NCBI GenBank assembly: GCA_028285315.1
Contig: JANQPU010000200.1
Span: 1-33,805 of the forward strand
Source: Acaryochloris sp. IP29b_bin.176
Lineage (GTDB): Bacteria; Cyanobacteriota; Cyanobacteriia; Thermosynechococcales; Thermosynechococcaceae
Direction of reading: 5' to 3'
DNA length: 33,805 nucleotides
The notes under the pieces: generated by a model
What the model saw: only the letters and a program-made list of their open reading frames with translations
Database searches by the model: none
Told to the model about the DNA's origin: nothing
Part shown: one piece after another, positions 27,252-33,805 of the stretch
How the letters are laid out: each line of letters opens with the position of its first letter
Numbering within the stretch: the stretch's first letter is position 1
Position numbers and translations under genes: made by a program

Positions 27252-27521
27252 AACTAAGGCTCTTTGCCACTTCAGATAGTCTAGTAGGGGTAAACAAGGT
27301 TAGTTTTTTACCTTACAGGCATAGGCAAAGAAAACAATTTTTCTACAAGTCTAACGTCCGATACATGCACTATATCGTGAAATTCTCAACCGAAGTTTTT
27401 GAAAGATTGGATAATTCCCCTGAAGCTAGGATTATCTCATGTGGATTCAATAATGCCATTATTTTGGCTTTATCAGGTTTTTGGCGGACAATATCATCAG
27501 AACAAAATTTATTATCCACTT

Positions 27522-30293
27522 ATGAAAAAAATTAATTCAAATCAAAAAATATCATCTCAGGTTTTGATGGACTATCTAAATTGCAAGTACAAAGCTTATC
27601 TAAGAATCTCCAAAGAAAATGAAGAGATCACTAATTTCCAGGTTTTAAACAAAGAAATTATTGACTTAACTAGACAACAATACAAAAAGATCTTCTGCCA
27701 GAAACCAACTACTTCATTTGGAGACTTTTCTACAGAGTCTTACGTTTCATCACGGACTCTAAAGAAGAGATTTAATAAACTATTTAATATAAAGATTGTG
27801 GATAAAGATCTAGAGGCGACAATTGATGTTATTGAACAAATATCATATAAACCTCCTATATATGTGCCAATTTCTATTTTGTCAGACTATAAAGTATCAA
27901 AAAATGATAAACTTTTATTGGCTTTCAATAGTTTTATTCTGAGTCAATCACTAAATAAGAATATAGAATTTGGAAAAATATTCTATGGATATCCATTAAA
28001 GTCACTAAAAGTAAATATAAAACCTTTATTTGATTCTATTTTAACTATTGTTGATGATATTAGAAAATTTATTTTTGAGAAAAAAGAACCAAATCATATA
28101 CTTAATAATCATTGTGAAATATGCATCTTTAAACAAAACTGCTATCAGAAAGCTCTTGATAATGACAATCTAAGCTTACTAAAAGTTTTAAGAAATAAAG
28201 ATATTCAGAAATTAAGGGAAAAAGGTATGTTTACAATATTTCAACTATCCCATACTTTTAGGCCAAGGCGAAGAATAAAGAAGAGGACACGAAACTCAAA
28301 GACTAGACATATCCCTGCCCTAAAAGCTTTAGCTATTAGAGAGAAAAAAGTCTATATATATAAAGAAGTAGAAATCCCAAAAACAAGAGTTAGAGTTTAT
28401 TTCGATGTAGAAGGAGATCCCGATAGAAATTTATTTTACTTATTAGGTATACTAGTAGACAAAGGGAGTTCACTAGAAAAAAAGTCTTACTGGATTGGCA
28501 ATGAATCAAACAAGGATCAAATAGCAGAAGACTTCTTAGATTACTTTGATCAACTTAGTGAATTCACTATATTCCACTATGGCAGCTATGAGATAAAATT
28601 CCTTAAATTTCTGCTAAAGAGTCTAATCAAAAGAAGAGAGAAGTCAATAGAAAGAATTATTGATAATAGCATAAATGTGTTGTCAATAGTTTACACATCA
28701 ATTTATTTTCCAACCTATTCTAATGGCCTGAAAGAAATATCTGGTTACTTGAGTTTTGAATATTCAGAACCTAATTCGTCAGGTTTATATAGTATTTTAT
28801 GGAGGAGACTATGGGAGGTGGATTATGATGAAGAGCTATATAAAAAATTAATTTTATATAATATGGAAGACTGCTTTGCATTAAAGAAGCTGACAGAATT
28901 TATTTTTGCCATATCGAATGATGAAAAGATTTCTAATCCTGAATTCTCTTCTATAGAAATTACATCAAATTTTTACAATGAAATCTCACAAAGATATGGA
29001 GGCTATAATTTTGGATCTCATAAATTTGCTTTAGATAATTTTGACTTTGTCAATAAACGTGCTTATTTTGACTATCAAAGAAATAAAGTTTTTTTCAGAA
29101 CTGATAAAAGATTGAAGAAGATCAATAAAAAAAATAAAAAAGGAGTGAGATTCAAGAGAAAAGTAAATCAAGAAAAATGTATCAACCCATCAAGAATTTG
29201 CCCAAATTGTGGTTCAACAGATACTTATAAGCAGAATACTAATTTTTATAAGATCGTTGTTGACTTAAAGTTCTTCACTGGCGGAATTAAGAGGTGGATC
29301 ACAAAGTACATTGGCTATTATGGCAAATGTAGGAAATGCAAAAAACAATATCTTCCTAATAAGTACAAGAAAATAAGAGTTAAATACGGTCATAATTTAA
29401 TAAGTTGGGTTATTTATCAAAATATTGTCAATAAGATTAGTTTTGAGAAAATCGAAAAGACATTAGCAGATAGTTTTCAGATATCAATAGGTACAGTTGG
29501 CTCTGGCAACTCTTATTACTTCAAAAAAATTGCCGCAAATTATTATCAAATATCTTATGATGAAATAGCTCGAAGGATTCAAGACTGGAGTATTATTCAT
29601 GCTGATGAGACTAGAGCTAGTATAAGAGGTGAAAATGGTTATGTATGGGTTTTTACAAACATGACTGAGGTATACTTTTTATATACTAATGATAGAAAAA
29701 CTGATTTTATTCCAGATCTCATTCAAGGCTTTAGTGGTGTTTTGATATCCGATTTTTATAAAGGTTATGAAAGTATTGGTTGTGAACAACAGAAGTGTTT
29801 AATTCACATCATGAGAGATGTTAATGATACTCTGTTTAAGCATCAACAAGATGAGGACCTGATACTTATTTCTCAGGGTTTTTCTGATCTATTACGAACA
29901 ATCATTGAAACAATAGATAAATATGGGCTTAAAAAAAGACATTTGAATAAACACAAGAAAGATGTTGATAAGTTTTACCGAATGTTGTGCAATAAATCAT
30001 GGGAATCTGAGATTGCGATAAAATTCAAAGAAAGATTTCAAAAACAGAGAGGTAAGTTATTTCTATTTCTTGATAAGGATGGCGTGCCTTGGAACAATAA
30101 TAATGCTGAACACGCCTTTAAGCACTTTTCAACCTATCGACGAGATACTAATGGAGTATTTACAGAGGAAGGTCTTCAAAGATATCTCATCTTGCTAAGT
30201 ATATATGAAACATGTAAGTATCAAGGTGTTAATTTTCTTGACTTTCTTTTATCAAAAGAGAAGAATATATATAAATATTTAGGAGAGAAATAA
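27522..30293 (+). CDS. Cas4/RecB-like nuclease + DEDD exonuclease + IS66 transposase fusion
   Basis: One intact frame of 923 residues from ATG 27522; it can extend to TTG 27399, and the numbering here counts from that TTG. The domains are, in order: (1) 50-250, a Cas4/RecB-like TM0106-type region with Cys62 (NCKYKAYL) and a distal CxxC-x5-C (C239, C242, C248), the layout of a Cas4 iron-sulfur cluster; (2) 330-505, an RNase H-like DEDD exonuclease fold with FDVEGDP (D336, E338) and YNMEDCFAL (D491); (3) a zinc ribbon with C601/C604 and C644/C647; (4) an IS66-type DDE domain with HADET (D736), ISDFYKGYE (D785), CLIH (800-803) and NNNNAEHAF (E904). The catalytic triad of IS66 is complete, while the E-x-K of the Cas4 core is not obvious. 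Base composition is far more AT-rich than the flanks, a sign of transfer. No IS66 helper genes (TnpA/TnpB types) adjoin. Confidence 0.85.
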   Translation: MKKINSNQKISSQVLMDYLNCKYKAYLRISKENEEITNFQVLNKEIIDLTRQQYKKIFCQKPTTSFGDFSTESYVSSRTLKKRFNKLFNIKIVDKDLEATIDVIEQISYKPPIYVPISILSDYKVSKNDKLLLAFNSFILSQSLNKNIEFGKIFYGYPLKSLKVNIKPLFDSILTIVDDIRKFIFEKKEPNHILNNHCEICIFKQNCYQKALDNDNLSLLKVLRNKDIQKLREKGMFTIFQLSHTFRPRRRIKKRTRNSKTRHIPALKALAIREKKVYIYKEVEIPKTRVRVYFDVEGDPDRNLFYLLGILVDKGSSLEKKSYWIGNESNKDQIAEDFLDYFDQLSEFTIFHYGSYEIKFLKFLLKSLIKRREKSIERIIDNSINVLSIVYTSIYFPTYSNGLKEISGYLSFEYSEPNSSGLYSILWRRLWEVDYDEELYKKLILYNMEDCFALKKLTEFIFAISNDEKISNPEFSSIEITSNFYNEISQRYGGYNFGSHKFALDNFDFVNKRAYFDYQRNKVFFRTDKRLKKINKKNKKGVRFKRKVNQEKCINPSRICPNCGSTDTYKQNTNFYKIVVDLKFFTGGIKRWITKYIGYYGKCRKCKKQYLPNKYKKIRVKYGHNLISWVIYQNIVNKISFEKIEKTLADSFQISIGTVGSGNSYYFKKIAANYYQISYDEIARRIQDWSIIHADETRASIRGENGYVWVFTNMTEVYFLYTNDRKTDFIPDLIQGFSGVLISDFYKGYESIGCEQQKCLIHIMRDVNDTLFKHQQDEDLILISQGFSDLLRTIIETIDKYGLKKRHLNKHKKDVDKFYRMLCNKSWESEIAIKFKERFQKQRGKLFLFLDKDGVPWNNNNAEHAFKHFSTYRRDTNGVFTEEGLQRYLILLSIYETCKYQGVNFLDFLLSKEKNIYKYLGEK

Positions 30294-30473
30294 TTCTTTC
30301 AAGCTGTATTTAAAATGCTCAAAAGTTAGGTTGCTTAATAAATCGTTCAAGGTTTAATTGGAGCGGCAAGCAATAAATTTTGACTGCATCTTCGATTTCT
30401 TTGTTTCTGCTCAACTCTAACGATATCTTTTTTTATTTATATTGGCTCACTCAACAGAGACAAAATCTTTAAC

Positions 30474-30825
30474 TTAAGGCCCATGCAAAAAAGAGGGATT
30501 GGAAGGTTTCGGTGTGATCAGTCCATCTTCTACATAGACCACCCGATCGGCGATATCCATAATCCGAGGGTCATGGGTCACCATGAGGACCGTACAGCCT
30601 TCTTCCTTGGCTAATTTTCGCAGCAGTTCCATGATCGTATGGCCTCGCTGAGAGTCTAGGGCAGCCGTGGGTTCATCTGCCAGAATCAGCTTGGGATTTC
30701 CCGCTAACGCTCTTGCTGCTGCCCACCCGATAGATTGCAGCGGGAACTTCAATTTTATTGGCTAGCCCAACTTGTTTCAGCAATCTTAGGGAGTCTTGTC
30801 TAACTACACGACTTTGGCTGCTCTT
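30474..30825 (-). pseudogene. DevA-like ABC transporter ATPase remnant
   Basis: The C-terminal part of an ABC ATPase reads clearly from 30752 to 30474: ARALAGNPKLILADEPTAAL (Walker B), then VLMVTHDPRIMDIADRVVY (H-loop). Upstream, a second frame (30825-30730) reads QDSLRLLKQVGLANKIEVPA, which is the helical part just before the signature motif. The LSGGQ signature and the join are lost by a frameshift or deletion, and Walker A is absent. The family is DevA/MacB-like exporters. The gene is dead, and the AT-rich transposase gene lies at its 3' side. Confidence 0.72.
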
Positions 30826-30826
30826 C

Positions 30827-30855
30827 AAACGGGTCTATCAATCAACCCGTTTTTA
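30827..30855 (+). terminator. orphan intrinsic terminator
   Basis: AAACGGGT (30827-30834) pairs with ACCCGTTT (30845-30852) over a 10-nt loop, followed by T residues. It points along the plus strand, but no intact plus-strand gene ends before it, so it may be left from a deleted gene. Confidence 0.5.
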
Positions 30856-30959
30856 TCACTAAGGCTGAAAAGCCCTTCCCGCAGGGGTTAGTAAGCCAAT
30901 TATTGGTGCTTGCTATCAAAAGACCTAGCAAGCATGGAGCAAAAAAGTGATTCACACAG

Positions 30960-31008
30960 TTGACAATATATTAAGTTACTGTTACATTTATTTACATAAG
31001 GTTACATC
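30960..31008 (+). promoter_or_regulatory. hli1 promoter with HLR1 triple repeat (RpaB site)
   Basis: TTGACA (30960-30965), a 17-nt spacer and TACATT (30983-30988) form a promoter. Three 8-mers with 10-bp period overlap the -10 box and run downstream: GTTACATT (30981), TTTACATA (30991) and GTTACATC (31001). They fit the HLR1 consensus (G/T)TTACA(T/A)(T/A) with 2-nt gaps, bound by RpaB. The position over the -10 implies repression in low light, as known for hli genes. Confidence 0.7.
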
Positions 31009-31035
31009 ACACATGATTTTACGGAGTCCAAGATT

Positions 31036-31179
31036 ATGAATTCATCCAACAACTTTTTTGGTTTCAATCCCTTTGCAGAAGCTTGGAGTGGCCGCCTAGC
31101 TATGGTCGGCATTTACATTGCCTTGATCATTGAACTCGTCACTGGTAAGGGTGTCCTACACTTCTGGGGATTGATGTAA
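31036..31179 (+). CDS. hli: high-light-inducible protein (Hlip), first copy
   Basis: A 47-residue single-helix protein of the chlorophyll a/b-binding-like family. The chlorophyll-binding motif E-x4-R is in FAEAWSGRLAMVG (Glu15, Arg20), followed by the helix IYIALIIELVTGKGVL. Hlips sit in thylakoid membranes, bind chlorophyll and carotenoid, and dissipate energy during photosystem II repair and chlorophyll synthesis. GGAG (31023-31026) precedes the ATG by 9 nt. It has its own HLR1 promoter and terminator, so it is a one-gene unit. It is short but complete for the family. Confidence 0.9.
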   Translation: MNSSNNFFGFNPFAEAWSGRLAMVGIYIALIIELVTGKGVLHFWGLM

Positions 31180-31306
31180 GTTCTGAAGTTGCCAAGCCTA
31201 GAACTCTCTTCCCGACTGCCGAAGGAAAATTTAAAGAACGGAGATTTTTCCGTCCAAGCAGCTTCAACATTTTCAGCCGTTCAAGCTTAATAAACTCTTC
31301 TCAAAC

Positions 31307-31331
31307 CCAGCCAAAAAGGCTGGTTTTTTTT
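31307..31331 (+). terminator. intrinsic terminator after first hli gene
   Basis: CCAGCC (31307-31312) pairs with GGCTGG (31318-31323) over an AAAAA loop, followed by eight T residues. This is a strong rho-independent terminator, 128 bp after the stop codon, leaving a rather long 3' UTR. Confidence 0.88.
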
Positions 31332-31408
31332 ATAGATGTTGCCGCTGCCGGTTGGAAGAGGGAAGGGCAGCAATTCACTGCCAGCACCATAGAAAGTTCG
31401 CATTTTAG

Positions 31409-31450
31409 TTGACAAAACTTTACATAAAGTTTACATTAATTCATGTAAAT
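31409..31450 (+). promoter_or_regulatory. hli2 promoter with HLR1-like repeats
   Basis: TTGACA (31409-31414), a 17-nt spacer and TACATT (31432-31437) repeat the layout of the first hli promoter. TTTACATA (31419-31426) and TTTACATT (31430-31437) are HLR1-type half-sites with a 3-nt gap, one more than the consensus. An inverted copy, ATGTAAAT, lies at 31443-31450. RpaB control is likely. Confidence 0.62.
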
Positions 31451-31476
31451 CATTTTCTACTACGGAGTCAAACACC

Positions 31477-31635
31477 ATGAGCATCAAGAATCAGACTTGG
31501 GGTTTTAACAGCTTTGCAGAGACTTTCAGTGGCCGCTTAGCCATGTGGGGCTTTTTCGTTGCCTTGGTCACCGAGGCCTTAACCGGAAAAGGAATCCTTG
31601 GACAACTGACTGCATTTTTCTTCTTTATTAACTAA
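31477..31635 (+). CDS. hli: high-light-inducible protein (Hlip), second copy
   Basis: A 52-residue single-helix protein, clearly paralogous to the first hli product. It has the E-x4-R chlorophyll-binding motif in FAETFSGRLAMWGF (Glu15, Arg20), the helix FVALVTEALTGKGIL and a hydrophobic tail (LTAFFFFIN). GGAG at 31464-31467 lies about 9 nt before the ATG. The shared leader word ACGGAGTC in both hli genes, and the shared promoter layout, suggest a tandem duplication including the control region. It has its own terminator. Confidence 0.9.
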   Translation: MSIKNQTWGFNSFAETFSGRLAMWGFFVALVTEALTGKGILGQLTAFFFFIN

Positions 31636-31682
31636 TAACGACTTGCGCCTAACTCATCATCCTGAATTACCTCTATCATTTG

Positions 31683-31713
31683 ACCCCAGTTGTGAACTGG
31701 GGTTATTTTTTTT
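31683..31713 (+). terminator. intrinsic terminator after second hli gene
   Basis: ACCCCAGT (31683-31690) pairs perfectly with ACTGGGGT (31696-31703) over the loop TGTGA, followed by TA and nine T residues. It lies 47 bp after the stop. Confidence 0.9.
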
Positions 31714-31730
31714 CTCCGTCTCTTCCATCC

Positions 31731-32399
31731 TTGAATCCTCCCCACGATGAAATCAAGCAACAGCAGACGGAACAACTCGACCAAGAACCTACACTACCGG
31801 AATGAGCAGAACAAGCTGAAATGTCTGTTTCTCAGCTTCAGACAGACCTGAAGCTAGGTCAAACTGCCAACCGAAAGATGGTTGAGTCCAATTTGCGATT
31901 GGTCGTCTCCATTGCCAAGAAAGATAACAAAGCCAAGCTCGAATTTCTCGCTCTGATTCAAGAAGGCACGATTGGCTTGCGACGAGGCGTAGAGAAATTC
32001 GACCCTACCAAAGGCTATCGATTTTCTACCTATGCCTATTAGTGGATTCGACAAACCATAACTCGGACAATTGCCGATCAAGAGCGAACCATTCGTTTAC
32101 CAATCCATATCAATGAAAAGTTAAGCAAGTAACGTAAAGTTAAACGCCAATTCTCCCTCAAGCTCCATCGTGACCCGATTATTGCGAAGTTAGCAGCGGC
32201 AATGGACCTTTCCCCGGAGAGAGTTGAAGCCTTCTGGAGTTATGATCGCCATTCGATTTCTTTGGATATACAGATTGGCGATCAGCAAAGGGAGAGCGAC
32301 TTAATGTGAGCAGAGAATGGGTGCGTCGGGTTGAGCGAGAAGCATTCCAACTGCTTCGGTCTCAGAAAAGGGGTCTTGCAAGAGTATATGGCGTCCTAA
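31731..32399 (+). pseudogene. decayed group-2 RpoD-like sigma factor
   Basis: The sequence follows sigma-70 region 2 closely ([54 protein letters not shown]), then region 3 (LAAAMDLSPERVEAF). It is broken by TGA 31803-31805 and TAG 32040-32042, both where tryptophan is expected, and by TAA 32130-32132 where leucine is expected. After ISLDIQIGDQQRESDL about 70 residues are deleted. Region 4.2 then resumes in another frame (SREWVRRVEREAFQLL), and a further shift leads to the normal C-terminal end LQEYMAS. Each stop is one base from the sense codon. The gene cannot make a full sigma factor; a fragment from ATG 31821 to TAG 32042 remains open. Confidence 0.85.
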
Positions 32400-32431
32400 C
32401 CTAGAGCCCCTCAAACATCCTTCTATCTTTC

Positions 32432-32463
32432 AAGCTGCTCTTCTATCAAAGAGCAGCTTTTTT
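32432..32463 (+). terminator. intrinsic terminator after the sigma pseudogene
   Basis: AAGCTGCTCTT (32432-32442) pairs perfectly with AAGAGCAGCTT (32449-32459) over a 6-nt loop, followed by T residues. The 11-bp stem has been kept although the gene before it is broken. Confidence 0.9.
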
Positions 32464-32700
32464 GTTTTACATAAATTTATAAAAATAATCGCCCCAGAAA
32501 TTTCGTGACTTCATCACAGCAATCCTTAATCTACAAATCCATGACTAAATTGACCTTAAATCTCTATAAAATCAATTTTTTATATCTTTAAGTGCCTATA
32601 TCTCGTCTTTAAGGTTCAATAAATTGATTTACAGTTTAATAACCAAATATTTCTAAGTTAAATTCAATTATCATAAAAAACTAAATATGTAAATTTATTT
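32464..32700. other. AT-rich spacer
   Basis: Very AT-rich DNA between the sigma pseudogene terminator and the pgr5 promoter. No gene, repeat pair or RNA was recognised. It could hold upstream regulatory sites of pgr5. Confidence 0.4.
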
Positions 32701-32708
32701 GATATAAC

Positions 32709-32753
32709 GTTACAAACTAGTTAATATAATTTACATAACGTTACAAAAAGGAG
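32709..32753 (+). promoter_or_regulatory. pgr5 promoter, HLR1 site and ribosome binding site
   Basis: TATAAT (32725-32730) is a good -10 box. TTTACATA (32730-32737) and GTTACAAA (32740-32747), 2 nt apart, match the HLR1 consensus and lie at the start of the transcript. One more half-site, GTTACAAA, is at 32709-32716. AAGGAG (32748-32753) follows at once, so the operator and the ribosome binding site abut. This position suggests repression by RpaB. Confidence 0.62.
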
Positions 32754-32759
32754 TTCATC

Positions 32760-32957
32760 ATGTTTGCCCCTCTCATCATCCTAGTCCGCAACATTGTTGG
32801 TCAGCCCAAATTTGTAAAGCTAAGAGGTAAAGCCATCGCTATGCACTCTAAAGCAATTACTAATGTCTGCAACCAAATAGGTATTGATCGGAGTCGCCGT
32901 CAAGGTTGGATTCGACTAGCTCGTGACAATGGCAAACGCCTTGGACTCCTAGCCTAA
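32760..32957 (+). CDS. pgr5: PGR5 homologue (proton gradient regulation 5)
   Basis: A 65-residue protein that matches the mature part of plant PGR5 and cyanobacterial Ssr2016 along its whole length: FAPLIILVRNIVG, KLRGKAIAMHSKAI, then IGIDRSRRQGWIRLARDNGK and the end RLGLLA. PGR5 is needed for ferredoxin-dependent cyclic electron flow around photosystem I in plants, and Ssr2016 has been linked to the same in Synechocystis. The protein is very basic and has no membrane helix. AAGGAG lies 6 nt before the ATG. With the HLR1 promoter and the neighbouring Hlips it belongs to a high-light cluster. Confidence 0.9.
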   Translation: MFAPLIILVRNIVGQPKFVKLRGKAIAMHSKAITNVCNQIGIDRSRRQGWIRLARDNGKRLGLLA

Positions 32958-33177
32958 AGAGTCAGCGCAGTAGTGGGTGAATGTTATCCCCACCTCAAGA
33001 TCTAAGCCTTGCTTTTCTTTAACTTACATTTAGCTGTTCTGCAACCAAGTAATGCCCTTTCAAAACAGCTCAGTATTTCTTCACTGCTCGACAATTTGGT
33101 GATTGGACCTAGGTAGATTAAGGGCGTTTTTCACCAAACGTTGAGCCACACACCACTTTTTAAATAAGGGCCTTCTC

Positions 33178-33732
33178 ATGCCTGTTAATGACAAACCACG
33201 ACGTCCTAATCCCTTTAGAACGATTTTACTGTTACTGCCCTTGGGCCTATTAGTTTTAAATCTAGTTTTGACCTTCGGTAACGGTCCACGAGTTTCCAAA
33301 GTGCCCTATAGCTTCTTCCTTGAGCAAGTCCAAGATGGAGAGGTAGCTCGGGTCTCCGTTGGCCAAGATATCATCCGCTATCAACTCAAAGGCATGGAGG
33401 GAAATGCAGGTCAGGTGCAAGAAACGACCCCTATTTTCGACTTAGAGTTGCCTAAGTTACTTGAAGCCAACGATGTCGAATTCGCCGCCACTCCTCCTGC
33501 TGGAAATCGCTGGTTCACCACTCTTTTGAGCTGGGTCATTCCCCCAGTTATCTTCGTCGCCATCTTCCAATTCTTCAGCCGGGGCGGCATCGGTGGTGGG
33601 GGTCCCCAAGGTGCCCTTTCCGTCACCAAGAACAAAGCCAAAGTCTATGTTGAAGGCGATGACAACAAAGTCACCTTTAATGACGTTGCTGGTGTGGAAG
33701 AATCTAATACCAAACTGTGCCTGCAAGCGTAA
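33178..33732 (+). pseudogene. ftsH: FtsH protease, N-terminal part only
   Basis: The 184 codons cover the FtsH N-terminus. A first membrane helix lies at 14-33, then comes the periplasmic/lumenal domain (VPYSFFLEQVQDGEVARVS to EFAATPPAGN), a second helix at 113-134, the Gly-rich linker and the strand before the AAA domain (VTFNDVAGVEE, to residue 175). There the homology stops. Nine unrelated residues follow to TAA 33730-33732, so Walker A, the AAA module and the zinc protease are missing. The remaining 73 bp of the window do not restore them. It may be a dead fragment, or a short protein able to mix into FtsH hexamers. Thylakoid FtsH degrades damaged D1. Confidence 0.78.
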
Positions 33733-33805
33733 TTTTCAAATCTGTGAAATTCTCTCCTAGCCTACTTTAGTCACTAATCAAAATTACACTCTTGGAGACT
33801 TATTG

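Follow-up and report, generated by a model that had tools for sequence, protein, structure and literature searches.

What is the function of a protein that carries a TM0106-type, nuclease-like half and an IS66-type DDE transposase domain in one chain? The question is raised by a gene at positions 27522-30293 (+ strand) of contig JANQPU010000200.1 from Acaryochloris sp. IP29b_bin.176, a stretch of 33,805 nucleotides that we call the window. TM0106-type proteins usually continue into a superfamily 1 helicase. An earlier note on this DNA had seen in the gene a mobile element, or a defence or repair factor derived from one, that couples DNA end processing to transposition. From sequence comparisons, we propose that the fusion protein is a "trimmer-integrase" carried as cargo; this reading is tentative, with a probability of roughly 0.45.

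Domains and active sites of a recurrent fusion

The gene is a single open reading frame (ORF) of 923 amino acids (aa) with an ATG start and no internal stops. An upstream in-frame TTG at 27399 would extend the protein to 964 aa; the offset between the two numberings is 41, and the residues D736, D785, and E904 counted from the TTG are D695, D744, and E863 counted from the ATG, as used here. The N-terminal half passes the cut-off of the NCBIfam model TIGR03491 (TM0106 RecB-like) across the whole domain, with 173.5 bits against 97.45 over residues 12-461 (profile positions 3-462 of 462). Residues 543-910 score 176.3 bits with NF033517 (IS66 transposase), slightly below the cut-off of 180. Pfam models matching the protein are DDE_Tnp_IS66 (2e-30) and RNase_H_2 (7e-20), with Cas_Cas4 at 0.0024, below its cut-off. 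The predicted folds are, in order and all on the + strand, a Cas4-like domain (residues 4-213, 27531-28160), a DEDD 3'-5' exonuclease-type domain (residues 288-482, 28383-28967), a zinc ribbon with C560, C563, C603, and C606 (residues 560-606, 29199-29339), and an IS66-type DDE domain (residues 621-886, 29382-30179).

Conservation was read from an alignment of 193 rows (188 distinct, 5 identical to others) made after the removal of ORFs shorter than about 850 aa and of frames interrupted by stops. The DEDD residues D295, E297, Y446, and D450 are invariant (193/193) and position 357, E in the window protein, is always E or D; the protein has the D-E-D/E-D residues and the predicted fold of a DEDD exonuclease. 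For the DDE domain, D695 and D744 are each present in 192 rows and E863 in all 193. Since 81 locus rows had been chosen with a pattern that included E or V at position 863, the conservation of E863 was judged on the 112 rows chosen without the motif, where it is found in 112/112, with D695 and D744 each in 111/112. The complete DDE triad noticed earlier is thus confirmed under its new numbering and is near-invariant. Both the exonuclease and the transposase sites look intact, and we infer that they are active.

The Cas4-like domain is different. Its Fe-S (iron-sulfur)-type cysteines are kept, C198, C201, and C207 in 193/193 rows and C21 in 189. Motif III of Cas4 and other PD-(D/E)XK nucleases is an acidic residue-x-Lys. 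When the E-x-K of Cas4 8d3l was mapped onto the fusion, it fell on positions 118 and 120, where no row (0/193) has the motif; position 118 is acidic in one row and position 120 is K in none. An out-of-register D/E/Q-x-K occurs somewhere in residues 112-125 in 9 rows. Because of this loss at the mapped positions, the Cas4-like fold is predicted to be inactive in the fusion family. The domain order given by the earlier note stands for the fusion, the DEDD domain, the zinc ribbon, and the DDE domain, but the term nuclease does not stand for the Cas4-like part. Stand-alone TM0106 proteins of the same phylum (L007, L017, L018, L019, and L022) also lack a clean E-x-K, having patterns such as IDIRLGKRPK, and the loss may for this reason be older than the fusion.

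The fusion recurs in other genomes at unrelated loci. A homologue search gave matches at E<=1e-3 for 3950 of the 7998 candidates scored; among the best 120 of these, a set that contains the window protein itself, the alignment spans at least 87% of the query in 117 and 63, 77, and 83% in the remaining three. A second copy, with 33% identity, is found on another contig of the window's genome (L166, G000:C380). The search of genome contigs confirmed 279 loci, 80 of which were retained. Their hosts, by record title, are Cyanobacteria, Proteobacteria, Acidobacteria, Planctomycetes, Verrucomicrobia, Bacteroidetes, Nitrospirae, Nitrospinota, and Hydrogenedentota, along with one archaeal metagenome-assembled genome (MAG). 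The bacterial hosts are thus assigned to nine phyla; several groups are represented by MAGs only, so that single phylum assignments may be wrong. A tree of N-terminal halves, made with 24 of 27 stand-alone TM0106 members of the same phylum, separates these from 36 fusions at 100/100, and the fusions form one clade. The distances of the two protein halves are correlated (r 0.78, 18528 pairs). Finally, the ratio of nonsynonymous to synonymous substitution rates (dN/dS) is 0.08-0.28 in five close fusion pairs, which indicates that selection keeps the protein in these pairs.

Proposed trimming and integration, and the settings of the gene

DDE chemistry needs a defined 3'-OH. In the mechanism that we propose, trimming of 3' DNA ends by the DEDD domain would supply this 3'-OH, and the ends so prepared would be joined to target DNA by the DDE domain. 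The zinc ribbon may hold or choose the DNA end together with the Cas4-like domain, which is predicted to be inactive. The enzyme would be cargo of other mobile platforms, and its substrates would not be classical transposon ends belonging to the element itself but other DNA ends. A natural fusion from CRISPR (clustered regularly interspaced short palindromic repeats) systems, Cas1-Cas2/DEDDh, prepares 3' ends for integration by such trimming, and the name trimmer-integrase was given to it (PMC10284694). The TM0106-IS66 fusion shows the same pairing and has in addition a Cas4-like domain that can probably no longer cut but may still hold DNA; this points to a possible trimmer-integrase with a transposase at its core. 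With modest confidence we favor captured or foreign DNA ends as the substrate over self-transposition, since the typical ends were not found and some members are carried as cargo. Of the coupling between DNA end processing and transposition proposed earlier, the link from end processing to DDE chemistry is plausible; self-transposition is doubtful, its ends not having been found.

The window gene lies in an AT-rich island (27400-30480; GC content 0.29 for the gene, 0.47 for the rest of the window) and in a cargo slot (27475-30421) that was delimited by comparing flanks with relatives. The left flank can be aligned to about 27337, with a weaker match seen by eye up to about 27475, and the right flank resumes at about 30421. 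The slot is bordered by an epimerase-type gene and by a 3'-terminal fragment of the gene for an ATP-binding cassette (ABC) exporter ATPase (30474-30752, - strand). When insertion sites were compared between related strains, three relatives were found to hold other cargo in this slot, each closed by the same ATPase fragment. At this hotspot behind the ABC exporter ATPase (window 27475-30752; L163/G002, L162/G003, and L161/G001), the closing copies of the gene's 3' end measure 242-296 bp, and G002 has three copies in a row. Insertion by the IS66 family leaves an 8-bp target-site duplication; the ends of the insert around the window gene could be located only approximately, the nearest relatives having other cargo in the slot.

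Direct repeats are found within 2500 bp around 15 of the 83 fusion loci; the end and repeat counts leave out L210, L217, and L218 (duplicates of L044, L069, and L104) and L042 (near-identical to L041). Within 1500 bp, the count is 9/83 for fusions versus 0/54 for TM0106 controls (one-sided P 0.009). The repeat and a called tRNA gene overlap in L037, L056, and L060; in L103, L106, L107, and L209 the repeat looks tRNA-derived or tRNA-adjacent by eye. For example, L037 is a 3.5-kb contig with the fusion gene only, whose identical 44-bp ends overlap a tRNA-Glu gene; these ends may reflect a circle, tandem tRNA genes, or an attachment (att) site. No clear excess of tRNA genes was seen near fusions (10/80 loci, with flanks up to 4 kb, or 6 kb for two, versus 7/58 TM0106 controls with 1.5 kb), and the one hit among 19 further fusion loci repeats a contig counted before. 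No empty site spanning the junction of L086 was found in 58 genomes of its relatives. The second copy in the window's genome, L166, lies between 97-bp direct repeats that are 86% identical.

Other members are found in integron-type cassettes, where attC sites bound either the fusion gene alone or the fusion gene together with an AbiE toxin-antitoxin pair. An attC just behind the gene is clear by score only in L054; attC-type sites were recognized by eye in L036 and in the Bacteroidota cassettes L057, L063, and L076, and L062 and L072 were grouped with the cassettes by homology to L063. In the Bacteroidota loci L057, L062, L063, L072, and L076, the fusion gene and a DUF6088-AbiEii pair form one unit.

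Several points weigh against a trimmer-integrase carried as cargo. The DDE half is nearest to ordinary insertion sequence (IS) transposases, which makes self-mobility the default expectation, and no product of integration by the fusion protein was found. The predicted structure has a predicted TM-score (pTM) of 0.60, leaving the domain arrangement unsure. Direct repeats are absent at 68/83 fusion loci, and the same-contig control (7/62 versus 0/18, P 0.15, the duplicate contigs L210, L217, and L218 still being in the count) is too small for significance. Moreover, direct repeats are also produced by site-specific integrases.

Alternative explanations

The alternative that survives best is an autonomous single-gene transposon, an IS66 offshoot with short or diverged ends, in which the nuclease-like half processes the element's own ends at excision or insertion. 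The nearly invariant DDE residues, the low GC content of the window copy, the patchy spread over many phyla, and the many short contigs among the homologues listed, as repeats yield, are all consistent with it. Its ends were sought with plain IS66 genes from relatives' genomes as the positive control, 11 of the 20 control loci giving a usable ORF. These genes have inverted repeats that start with GTAA or similar and score at least 15 in 6/11 cases, and GTAA...TTCA on both sides in 7/11. The fusions differ: a score of at least 15 is reached in 6/86, none of the six being IS66-type, and IS66-type ends are found on both sides in only 1/83 and on either side in 15, as in shuffled flanks (1.08 and 17, respectively). 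The best inverted pair of the window copy scores 9.0 versus 8.5 when shuffled. Apart from L089, no terminal inverted repeats flanking the gene exceed shuffles of the same flanks. In L089, a 30-nt inverted pair encloses the fusion gene; it was rejected as element ends because its motif, ACTNTTCGRACCTACGTCYCTC, is a dispersed repeat present at 14 sites in genome G099, with inverted pairs about 125-165 bp long in two contigs.

Copies of the gene also bear on such a transposon. Similarity within 20 related fusion pairs mostly ends at or near the ORF ends, which speaks against a transposon; the exceptions are L041/L042 and L047/L070. The copy search covered 50 of the 80 loci and 48 genomes. Two or more matches were found in 14/48 genomes, in favor of a transposon, some of these matches being pieces of one gene. 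Against it, the 29 same-genome pairs, which come from 12 genomes, include no recent duplicate of full length (the closest pair is 76% identical over 2780 nt, and a pair involving a fragment reaches 91% over 448 nt), an absence that is strong and not final, since drafts may collapse or hide identical copies.

The distribution of the family is patchy. A full-length fusion is found in only 1/97 genomes drawn as relatives (the window's own), in 2/386 of the window's phylum (G000 and G263), in 2/399 of the order of G123 (one being the seed), and in 3/294 of the phylum of G103, a Planctomycetia MAG (two known before). At the DNA level, the Nostoc-type copy L046 has matches in 2/217 genomes of its family. 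Only 2/72,556 plasmid records have a match covering at least 80%, which speaks against a transposon, and no fusion relatives were found in the viral contigs searched. With neither IS66-type ends nor any conserved inverted repeats found at its termini, with diverged same-genome copies, and with some members in cassettes or between direct repeats, the gene appears unlike an ordinary IS66 element and is doubtful as a transposon in its own right, as the earlier note would have it; we regard an autonomous element as rather unlikely.

The transposase may instead have been domesticated as an effector against phages or plasmids, its DDE and DEDD sites cutting and degrading invading DNA and nothing being integrated; this reading is unlikely too, and ranks behind the transposon. 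Pfam and PADLOC scans of 133 of the 213 flanking ORFs identified the toxin-antitoxin families DUF6088 (5), AbiEii (5), Gp49 (3), and PIN (3); AbiEii was confirmed adjoining L056 and L106, and PIN adjoining L206 and L113. A pair of the MNT-HepT type lies near the second copy in the window's genome (L166). These neighbors, single defense-model matches such as DpdF, and the cargo-type settings favor an effector, but toxin-antitoxin genes are common in accessory islands generally, partner genes vary between loci, and PADLOC models at E up to 0.1 match the Cas4-like part only.

A bolder form of the trimmer-integrase is a DNA-capture machine like that of CRISPR adaptation, but with an independent origin and a transposase as its core. 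Holding, trimming, and integrating captured ends would all fall to one protein, which would be spread by toxin-antitoxin islands and integron cassettes that carry it as cargo, and which might itself build the direct-repeat-bounded islands around it; we consider this improbable. Finally, an assembly or annotation merger of the two halves, which the earlier note had named as a possible objection (at about residue 510-590), has nothing in its favor and is refuted by the many independent assemblies that contain full-length relatives, the second copy in the window's genome, the single clade, and the correlated distances of the halves.

Relation to known systems

With the IS66-family transposases (NF033517, PF03050), the fusion shares the DDE triad with the NNNNAE motif and the zinc ribbon, but it scores just below the family cut-off, its N-terminal half is TM0106-type, and IS66-type ends flank it no more often than by chance. 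With the TM0106 RecB-like putative nucleases (TIGR03491) it shares its entire N-terminal half, well over the cut-off, but the fusions form a clade apart from the stand-alone members and their partner is a transposase, not a helicase. In TnsA-TnsB of Tn7, a nuclease partner likewise stands beside a DDE transposase. TnsA is an active restriction-type nuclease, whereas the fusion combines a nuclease-type fold of predicted inactivity with a DEDD exonuclease that looks intact.

Like the fusion, the CRISPR Cas1-Cas2/DEDDh trimmer-integrase joins a DEDD exonuclease to a DNA integrase (PMC10284694); its integrase is Cas1, unrelated to the IS66-type DDE domain, and the fusion adds a Cas4-like domain predicted to be inactive. 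The combination of trimming and integration has so far been described for a CRISPR integrase. Cas4 and solo-Cas4 proteins share the fold and the four cysteines, but the nuclease residues are lost in the fusion; the accessible main text of a survey of the Cas4 family mentions neither IS66, nor transposase, nor TM0106 (PMC5704561). No description of an IS66/TM0106 (TIGR03491) fusion was found in the literature searched, subscription papers and bioRxiv being outside the search.

The proteins make up a conserved fusion family so far filed under two unrelated names. A single chain unites three predicted folds that are used or recruited by CRISPR adaptation (Cas4, DEDD exonuclease, and integrase), the integrase being a different one. 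If the fusion does trim and integrate DNA, the trimmer-integrase design has more than one origin; should the fusion be a defense factor instead, it is one for which the literature searched gave no description.

The window continues, at 30720-33805, with what we take to be a run of gene fragments, including a piece of a sigma factor gene (31821-32042) and an FtsH-like N-terminus from 33178.
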